Assembly: GCA_947626395.1 (NCBI GenBank)
Contig: CANQRU010000039.1
Location: forward strand, 1 to 34,054
From: an uncultured Lachnospiraceae bacterium
GTDB taxonomy: Bacteria; Bacillota; Clostridia; Lachnospirales; Lachnospiraceae
DNA length: 34,054 bases
Reading direction: 5' to 3'
Numbering within the stretch: the stretch's first letter is position 1; every line of letters begins with the position of its first letter. The position numbers were made by a program, and so were the translations under genes. This document shows, one piece after another, positions 24,336 to 26,514 of the stretch. The notes beneath the pieces were generated by a model, which saw nothing but the letters and a program-made list of their open reading frames with translations, was not told where the DNA came from and did no database searches.

Positions 24336-24990
24336 TCTTATCGCTCTTTCTGGAAAGCCGGTTCCCCGCCTCCTGGATGATCTGTACCATCACCACCAGA
24401 AGCACCACCGACACCCACATCAGAAACGGCTCATACCGGTAATAGCCGTAGTTGATCGCAATGGCTCCCAGCCCTCCGCCGCCGGTGAAACCGGCCATGG
24501 CCGAATAGCTGAGAATCGTCGTCACCGCCAGCGCCGCGCCGAGAAGAAGGGACGGCTTCGACTCCGGCAAAAGCACCTTCCAGATAATCTGCCAAGTGGA
24601 CGCGCCCATAGACTGGGCCGCCTCGATGACGCCCGCGTCCAGTTCCCGGAAGGACGATTCCACCACCCTGGCCACATAGGGCGCCGCCGCGATAGTCAGC
24701 GGGATTACGATTGCCGGCGAACCGATCCTGGTACCGATCACGATCTTCGACAGCGGCAGCGCGATGAACAAAAGGATCAGAAACGGTACGCTGCGCAGCA
24801 GGTTGATTACAACTCCCAGAATTTTCTGCAGCCACGGGATCGGCCGAATTCCACCTTCGTCAGTGACCACCAGGATGATCCCCAGCGGCAGGCCGATGAT
24901 GTAGGCGAACAGGGACGACAAAGCCGTCATATAGAAGGACTCCCAGATCCCCGTCTTCAGCATATTGATCGTTACCGCATCAAGCTTCAT
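24325..24990 (-). CDS. metI: Methionine ABC transporter permease MetI
   Basis: Inner-membrane channel subunit of the MetNIQ importer. The 221-residue protein has five hydrophobic segments and the EAA loop EAAQSMGASTWQIIWKVLLP that docks MetN, both typical of the family. The ATG at 24988-24990 lies inside the end of metN (11-base overlap) behind GAGGAGGTGA, so translation is coupled. The last three codons and stop lie in the first unit of a 21-bp repeat, so the extreme C-terminus (RIR) may have been reshaped by repeat insertion. Confidence 0.95.
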   Translation of the reverse strand: MKLDAVTINMLKTGIWESFYMTALSSLFAYIIGLPLGIILVVTDEGGIRPIPWLQKILGVVINLLRSVPFLILLFIALPLSKIVIGTRIGSPAIVIPLTIAAAPYVARVVESSFRELDAGVIEAAQSMGASTWQIIWKVLLPESKPSLLLGAALAVTTILSYSAMAGFTGGGGLGAIAINYGYYRYEPFLMWVSVVLLVVMVQIIQEAGNRLSRKSDKRIR

Positions 24991-25999
24991 AACCGTTCAC
25001 CTCCTCGTAAGGAATCTTGATCGATTCCAGATAATCAATCACTCTCTCCGCACCGTCCGCGTCCTTCGGCAGCTGTACCACCATCTGTCCCATTGCCTTG
25101 CCCTGAATATCCCTTGTGGCCGCGTACATGATGTTCACCGGCGCCTTGCAGGCAAGGACCATATTGGAAATGATCGGCTCCGCGGACTCTCTGCCATCAA
25201 AGATAATTCGGATACTTCTTCCGCTTCCGGCACCGCCTGCCGCACGTTCCCCGGCATCTCCCATGATCAGCTTCCGTCCGATGGCAGACTGCGGATTTAA
25301 AAATATCTCCGACACCGCGCCGACCTCGGCGATCCGGCTCTGGTCGATGATCGCCACCCGGTCGCAGATGGCCTCAATCACCGCCATTTCATGGGTAATC
25401 ACGATGATCGTCACGCCCATGGTCTGATTAATCTCCTTAAGAAGCTCCAGGATCTGCTTCGTCGTGTTGGGATCCAGCGCGCTGGTGGCCTCGTCGCAGA
25501 GGATCACCTTCGGATTGGTCGCCAGCGCCCTGGCGATGGCCACCCTCTGCTTCTGTCCGCCGGATAACTGGGCCGGATAGGCCTGCGCACGGTCCTCAAG
25601 GCCGACCATTTTCAGAAGCTCCAGGGCCCGCTCACGCGCCTCTTTCTTCGGCACCCCGGTCAGTTCCAGCGGGAAACAGACGTTGCGGATCACATTTCTC
25701 TGGGCCAGCAGATTGAACTGCTGGAAGATCATTCCCATGGAGCGGCGGGTCGCGCGCCGCTGCGCGTCAGTCATCGCCGCCATGCTCTGGCCTTCGAAAA
25801 GCACGTCGCCTTCCGTGGGGACTTCCAGATAGTTGATGCAACGCACCAGAGTGCTTTTGCCGGCGCCGCTCAGGCCGATGATTCCGAAAATCTCACCGGC
25901 GGATACCTCCAGATTGATGTCCTGAAGGGCACGCACAGGGCCGTTTGCGGTTTTGAATTCTTTGGCCAGATTTTTGATCTGGATGATTGGGGTTTCCAT
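24980..25999 (-). CDS. metN: Methionine ABC transporter ATP-binding protein MetN
   Basis: ATPase subunit of the methionine importer. The 339-residue protein has Walker A GLSGAGKST (42-50), Q-loop GMIFQQFNLLAQR, signature LSGGQKQRVAIARAL, Walker B VILCDEATSALDP and switch histidine VITHEM. The last 80 residues form the NIL regulatory domain that binds methionine and gives trans-inhibition. The ATG at 25997-25999 follows GGAGGT by 7 bases. It is the first gene of the operon. The 5' leader of about 515 bases contains a methionine T-box and, after the T-box terminator, an unexplained nested palindrome. Confidence 0.96.
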   Translation of the reverse strand: METPIIQIKNLAKEFKTANGPVRALQDINLEVSAGEIFGIIGLSGAGKSTLVRCINYLEVPTEGDVLFEGQSMAAMTDAQRRATRRSMGMIFQQFNLLAQRNVIRNVCFPLELTGVPKKEARERALELLKMVGLEDRAQAYPAQLSGGQKQRVAIARALATNPKVILCDEATSALDPNTTKQILELLKEINQTMGVTIIVITHEMAVIEAICDRVAIIDQSRIAEVGAVSEIFLNPQSAIGRKLIMGDAGERAAGGAGSGRSIRIIFDGRESAEPIISNMVLACKAPVNIMYAATRDIQGKAMGQMVVQLPKDADGAERVIDYLESIKIPYEEVNGYEA

Positions 26000-26043
26000 G
26001 AGATGTACCTCCAGTTTTTGTCAATAAAAATGTTGTGCACATA

Positions 26044-26209
26044 TTCGCGACCCGCCAGCGCCGCCTCGGAAACGCGAAGCGTTTCCTCGGTCGCGGGCAT
26101 TGTTCCAATGCCCGCTCTGCCGTGAACCGACAGCCTCCGGCCTCCGCAAGCGGCGCCGGAGGCTGTCGGCTCACGGCGTGGCGGCGCTGTAACGATTTGC
26201 CTTCGCGAA
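26044..26209 (-). repeat. Nested multi-arm palindrome in the metN leader
   Basis: An outer pair TTCGCGA/TCGCGAA (26044-26050, 26203-26209) encloses a 10-bp stem CAGCGCCGCC/GGCGGCGCTG (26056-26065, 26180-26189). Inside lie three hairpins: 8 bp with loop GAA (26068-26086), 10 bp with loop TTC (26093-26115), and a 22-bp arm with one mismatch (26119-26140, 26156-26177). No frame in it looks like a gene. It could be a structured RNA or a palindromic mobile repeat. Confidence 0.8.
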
Positions 26210-26514
26210 AAAAACAGGCTCCCGTCCGCATAGGACGGGAGCCTTAAACTCTCGTGGTACCACCTAATTTCACCGGACACTCACATATCCGGCCTCTGCA
26301 GGTACGGCCTTCCGTTCGCAAACGGTAAGGATTATACCCTGTCGCTGTAACGGGCGCTGCCGTCGTGACCTAAACCATATGTTTCGGCCACGCAACTCCA
26401 GGACCATGTTCACAAGCTTCATTCTGCTCCTTCTCAGCCTTCGGAGCTCTCTGTGAGAATATCCCCCTGCTACTCTTCCCTTCCAAGTCTTTGGGTTCTG
26501 TATTCGGTTGACTT
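26208..26514 (-). ncRNA. T-box leader, methionine-specific, controlling metNIQ
   Basis: tRNA-sensing riboswitch. On the minus strand the conserved T-box AGGTGGTACCACG (26265-26253) carries the TGGT bulge that pairs with the NCCA end of uncharged tRNA. Stem I shows AGTAGC (near 26474), CTCCGAAGGCTGAGAAG and a specifier loop GAAC-ATG-G whose ATG (26407-26405) pairs with the methionine anticodon. The terminator is a perfect 12-bp stem (26216-26227, 26233-26244) followed by seven Ts (26214-26208). Low charged tRNA-Met should allow read-through into metNIQ. Confidence 0.9.

Follow-up and report, generated by a model that had tools for sequence, protein, structure and literature searches.

A dispersed palindromic repeat behind intrinsic terminators in Lachnospiraceae, with a copy between a T-box and a metN-like gene

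The strong palindrome between a T-box terminator and a metN-like gene in the window (the whole 34,054-nucleotide stretch of uncultured Lachnospiraceae DNA that was analysed) is a copy of a repeat element that is dispersed over unrelated loci, is mostly inherited locus by locus, and decays. As the best explanation of the data, the element is rather likely to be an inherited, decaying, dispersed non-coding palindromic repeat of ~155 bp, with its 5' end behind an intrinsic terminator and a four-way fold in which stem P1 closes hairpins P2, P3 and P4. Of the two roles proposed in the preliminary description of this DNA (a second regulatory RNA or a non-autonomous palindromic mobile repeat), the dispersed palindromic repeat fits better, a preference that is partly supported.

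Fold and setting of the element before the metN-like gene

The palindrome claimed at positions 26044-26209 is real and beats every shuffle on both strands. The plus strand of this interval folds at -113.1 kcal/mol, compared with -71.3 +/- 4.3 in 200 dinucleotide shuffles (0/200 as good; z -9.8), and the minus strand, which carries metN, folds together with its flanks (25995-26240) at -142.5 versus -94.4 +/- 5.1 (0/200 shuffles as good; z -9.4). When the plus strand was tiled into 409 stretches of 166 nt, the most stable one lay on the element (-98.7), and the next unrelated one reached -76.0. The computed fold recovered the claimed hairpins of 8, 10 and 22 bp (Table 1). The outer 7-bp pair described with them can form in the window and in its nearest relative (L028), but it amounts to 6 bp in the fold and is missing from the 22-copy consensus.

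Along the metN strand, the T-box (RF00230) is followed by a U-run, the element, 44 bases and the metN-like gene, so that the element starts right behind the Rfam T-box, between its terminator and metN, as had been claimed. The best NCBIfam match of the gene is TIGR02314 MetN (E 2.1e-101), with 339.3 bits and thus below the curated cut-off of 499.7. The element in this leader would be transcribed only on T-box read-through, and its effect on metN, if any, is probably tolerated rather than required.

Table 1. Coordinates of the element, its parts and its neighbours in the window
Feature	Position	Strand	Remarks
T-box leader RF00230	26228..26494	-	106.4 bits, E 9e-23
T-box terminator hairpin	~26216-26244	-	terminator-like site 26244-26216
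5' box CGCGAAGGCAAATCGTTACAGC	26186..26207	-	abuts terminator U-run; largely conserved in full copies (alignment)
P1 5' strand (RNA sense)	26178..26189	-	partner 26056-26067
P2, long variable hairpin with GCTTGC tip	26119..26177	-	sequence differs among copies, most pairs kept
P3 hairpin	26093..26115	-	stem nearly invariant (alignment and consensus fold)
P4 region	26064..26091	-	contains 12-mer footprint GCGTTTYCGAGG at 26064-26075
P1 3' strand	26056..26067	-	computed fold
Outer partner of 5' box	26045..26050	-	formed in window and L028; absent from consensus
Outer helix	26045-26050/26203-26208	+ coordinates	6 bp in computed fold
Closing stem P1	26056-26067/26178-26189	+ coordinates	computed fold
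Three hairpins	26068-26086 (8 bp), 26093-26115 (10 bp), 26119-26177 (22 bp)	+ coordinates	computed fold
metN-like ABC transporter ATPase gene	24980..25999	-	ORF; downstream of element

Copies, their placement and weaker relatives

A BLAST search with a 191-base query (E 0.001) found matches in 12 of the 26 genomes of the genus. The full window-type copies number 27, at 11 loci in 11 genomes, and were found only in the window's own genome (G000) and ten of the genomes G010-G023. An alignment of 22 full copies (168 columns; a second, cut-off copy of 85 nt at L029 was left out) shows that P2 varies, with the 5' box largely conserved and P3 and P4 close to invariant. From this alignment a covariance model, R1, was built, which also set the ends of five of the 27 copies found by BLAST. 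The preliminary description had taken copies at many unrelated loci with target duplications as the mark of a mobile element, and a single conserved site before metN with compensatory changes as that of a cis-regulatory RNA. BLASTN and the covariance model yielded copies at unrelated loci, and since 11 loci carry full copies, a cis-acting RNA unique to metN was rejected. Compensatory changes were found as well: RNAalifold gave 47 consensus pairs for the 22 copies, with both sides changed in some copy at 22 of them.

At E 0.01, R1 matched 19 of the 26 genus genomes, some of them weakly, and at E 0.001 it matched 60 of 299 Lachnospiraceae genomes (including G000 and G023 from the same genus). 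Presence outside the family was rejected, as all six matching genomes in a 196-genome sample of the order belong to the Lachnospiraceae. An exact 30-base pattern occurred in 23 stretches among 84,980 species genomes, all of them uncultured Lachnospiraceae 'Lapin' MAGs. The element had no BLAST match in plasmids and phages, on which ground carriage by either was rejected, and three element patterns had no exact match in viral contigs.

The proposal of a dispersed mobile palindromic repeat holds in part. As in MITE-like elements, related copies are dispersed at unrelated loci; however, no target duplication, readable empty site or mobilising enzyme was found, and mobility is therefore inferred from the dispersal. 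When the ptsH-like and rlmD loci were examined for target duplications across the genus, the flanks of element-free genomes proved too diverged for the ends to be read. In L047, L045, L052, L054, L056, L029 and L033, tandem partial copies stand behind the same terminator.

The 11 loci in the genus (genes named from NCBIfam or Pfam, with one copy tested per locus) comprise seven T-box leaders (metN-like, TIGR04076 family, trpE, valS, pheS, tyrS and Asp-tRNA(Asn) ligase), one ZTP riboswitch leader (IMP cyclohydrolase-like gene, a weak match below the cut-off), and three terminators at gene ends (followed by a DEAD-type helicase gene, rlmD and rex). The gene upstream at the DEAD-type helicase locus is HPr-like by eye, with no Pfam match. 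Behind the terminator, the orientation is fixed in all 27 copies. The T-box model RF00230 (E 0.001) gave 63 matches in seven genomes, of which 15 exceed the Rfam cut-off and the remaining 48 have E 9.3e-8 or below; 15 of the 63 adjoin a full copy (4 over the cut-off, the other 11 at E 2.8e-12 or better). Conversely, of the 21 R1 matches in these seven genomes that are full-length and score above 100 bits, 15 have their start no more than 30 nt from an RF00230 match on the same strand, a proportion that neutral insertion fails to explain. The other six include one after the ZTP riboswitch, four at gene ends and one (G023:C103) behind what looks by eye like a T-box at the edge of a contig. By a crude yardstick, T-boxes are over-represented: the window holds 3 terminator-like sites in 34 kb at a threshold of our own choice (a minimum of 9 pairs and of 7 G-C pairs), which scales to ~300 in a genome, and G000 has 10 T-box matches.

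The placement raises the alternative of a cis-acting RNA of attenuator-controlled genes, which would form at the 5' end of the coding mRNA after antitermination and set its processing, stability or translation. Attenuator leaders account for 8 of the 11 loci, and each of the 11 is followed by a reading frame in the same direction (the contig of L029 stops short of the gene); the two-sided changes and the near invariance of P3, P4 and the 5' box are also in its favor. The three gene-end terminator loci argue against it, as does the promoter-like sequence seen by eye between the element and rex, and taken with the scars and pairing data below, this alternative is considered rather unlikely.

More distant copies occupy other positions. 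Context was read for 36 weaker hits, and the 28 loci fetched outside the genus were designated L121-L148. In other Lachnospiraceae genera, 11 of these 28 start no more than 3 nt from the stop codon of a tuf-like gene (L121-L126, L128, L136-L138 and L142) and 3 within 15 nt of an rpsI-like stop (L131, L135 and L143), calls that were made with Pfam on L122 and L135 and by eye, from the same C-terminal peptide or DNA, for the rest. Some weaker relatives begin within the last codons of a reading frame. Six (L105, L106, L107, L129, L132 and L141) start directly after TATAAT boxes, as if with their own promoter. By eye, P2 is terminator-like with a GCTTGC-type tip in many weaker relatives, so that a single RNA may rarely span the element from end to end. 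An Rfam search at 20 weaker loci (17 outside the genus, 3 inside) found no T-box, which makes the attenuator preference, as far as tested, a trait of the window subtype. These contexts allow a tentative and on present data unlikely scenario, namely a Lachnospiraceae-wide uncatalogued RNA family marking transcription-unit boundaries, with its 5' box at tuf-like and rpsI-like stops, P2 as terminator, and positions after TATAAT boxes, that would have moved behind attenuators in this genus and there exert a shared control, past the terminator, over tRNA-ligase, trp, met and purine transcripts that read through.

Inheritance, scars and the pairing of the arms

The nearest neighbor of 17 of the 27 copies lies at the same locus (17 of 22 possible, as five are sole at their locus), a count as high as which was reached in 0 of 5000 label shuffles, and no copy (0/27) has its nearest neighbor in the same genome. 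The remaining five copies, at metN (2) and Asp-tRNA(Asn) ligase (3), are nearest to a copy at another locus, and exchange or repeated gain at these two loci is possible. For the repeat as a whole, copies would have been gained behind terminators in an ancestor.

Loss is recorded in scars. Among the 48 T-box leaders without a full copy, 40 were fetched, and the P4 footprint (at most 1 mismatch, within 120 nt downstream) was present in 8 of these, compared with 0/40 on the control strand; one further leader retains the 5' box, and two others (L200 and L215) resemble remnants by eye. A census of the footprint 12-mer GCGTTTYCGAGG against a reversed-pattern control in five genomes gave hits versus controls of 10/2 (G000), 8/4 (G012), 5/1 (G013), 6/2 (G016) and 6/4 (G023, where the two are close); it sees only scars that keep the 3' arm of P4, and its sites were read fully in G000 and partly elsewhere. 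The 10 hits in G000 fall on nine sites. One is the intact copy at metN, and the other eight are scars (at the Asp-tRNA(Asn) ligase, tyrS, trpE, TIGR04076, valS, rlmD, ptsH-like and rex loci); six of the nine are at T-boxes and three at gene-end terminators. By eye, the hits G016 C41 and G023 C1, C11 and C75 show neither terminator nor scar. Deletions of a similar kind have brought the 5' box and P4 together at valS and rlmD in G000 and in a ZTP-like leader in G013 (by eye), and the ptsH-like and rlmD loci bear scars in some relatives and nothing recognisable in others. Slipped-strand deletion between short direct repeats could have removed the palindrome and left such scars.

That eight of the nine detectable sites in the window's own genome are scars, with the genes still present, speaks against a cis-acting RNA. 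The second regulatory RNA proposed in the preliminary description gains from the over-represented attenuator leaders and the compensatory changes, but loses weight because close relatives have repeatedly lost the element and because copies stand at ordinary gene-end terminators; it is possible rather than favored. An inherited repeat is likelier than a second switch because the element sits behind transcription stop signals, mostly those of T-boxes, and is often lost.

The paired changes are themselves open to another reading. P4 of the ptsH-like scar in G000 forms a perfect palindrome, and G012 and G013 carry a GA mismatch there; the arm of a scar has thus become a perfect match, indicating that pairing can be perfected by mutation alone. 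The P4 tip reads GAA in 11 of the 22 copies, TTC only in the window, and is mixed in the others. Template switching has been reported to create and maintain RNA hairpins (PMC8794818). Given the rewritten scar, the varied tip and this report, paired changes alone are no proof of RNA selection here, and hairpin-templated (template-switch) mutation may help to keep the arms matched.

Strand comparisons bear on a further alternative, in which the element would act at the DNA level, as a cruciform or as a palindrome bound by protein at the ends of transcription units (comparable to BIME/REP), and its RNA structure would be incidental. In the 27 genus copies, G-U pairs are about equal on the two strands (52 on the RNA strand versus 55 on the complement), a lack of strand preference that agrees with a DNA-level element and speaks against a cis-acting RNA. 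The palindrome perfected in a scar and the terminator-like P2 of many weaker relatives (by eye) likewise point to DNA. The G-U pairs of 34 weaker R1 hits, 27 of which come from outside the genus and 7 from within it, nevertheless favor the RNA strand by 92 to 41, although these were found with a sense-strand model; the orientation behind the terminator is fixed, no binding protein was identified, and the DNA-level alternative is judged quite improbable. For 20 of the 27 genus copies (p 0.0016), the RNA strand is more stably folded than the complement, which counts in favor of a cis-acting RNA; the same holds for 29 of the 34 weaker hits. Pair counts from the model-fitted alignment that includes antisense matches were not relied on.

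Relation to known elements

The window element has no Rfam match at the gathering score, a result that also weighs against a cis-acting RNA. At E 10 or below, the window copy yields 13 Rfam matches, the best being microRNA hairpin models (E 0.0009), and as every one falls below the gathering score, membership in an Rfam family was rejected. No published description of the element was found in the literature at the level of titles and abstract openings.

The closest resemblance in layout is to Clostridiales-1 RNA (RF01699; Weinberg 2010, PMC2864571), which is likewise common in Lachnospiraceae, multicopy in some genomes, and (by eye) built from a P1 closing three hairpins with a long P2 ending in GCUUGC. 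The sequences of P1, P3, P4 and the ends differ, and RF01699 and R1 do not cross-match: the window copy fails to match RF01699 even at E 10 (cut-off 48 bits), and R1 matches none of 28 RF01699 loci with confidence (best E 7.2). The two share a layout and not a sequence model. Although one weaker relative (L126) reaches 51.7 bits with RF01699, it is highly improbable that the element is a divergent Clostridiales-1 RNA. RF01699 exceeds its cut-off in 13 of the 26 genus genomes (controls: 1/14 matched, below the cut-off) and in 87 of 200 family genomes (controls 0/14). Within the genus, it does so in 9 of the 11 genomes G001-G009, G024 and G025, in 4 of the 14 genomes G010-G023, and not in G000. 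At the ptsH-like locus of G011 and G017 (L274 and L275), a different palindrome lies behind the same terminator, and its inner hairpin resembles P4 of Clostridiales-1 by eye.

Several other systems offer partial parallels. The REP/BIME and ERIC sequences of enterobacteria are short dispersed intergenic palindromes, often at transcription-unit ends, all of which applies to the present element; it differs from them in sequence and host, in its preference for attenuator terminators, and in that only 5 of the 11 full-copy genomes carry a Y1 transposase. The Y1 (RAYT-type) domain PF01797 was detected in G000, G012, G017, G019 and G023 and was not found in G011, G013, G014, G015, G016 and G021, several of the 11 genomes being incomplete drafts; a RAYT-driven REPIN was rejected because of this inconsistent co-occurrence. 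Tandem leaders that combine a T-box with a riboswitch also place a structured RNA beside a T-box, but the present element stands behind unrelated genes and ordinary terminators, again with no Rfam match at the gathering score. Group IIC introns insert behind terminators; an Rfam match to their ribozyme core was not found in the window.

The data from these genomes point to a repeat family of common gut bacteria that goes undetected by Rfam. In this genus, it is placed preferentially behind the terminators of attenuators, a position from which only read-through transcripts include it. The element also carries a warning: one scar's arm has been rewritten to match its partner, so that paired changes in a long hairpin do not necessarily reflect selection on RNA.
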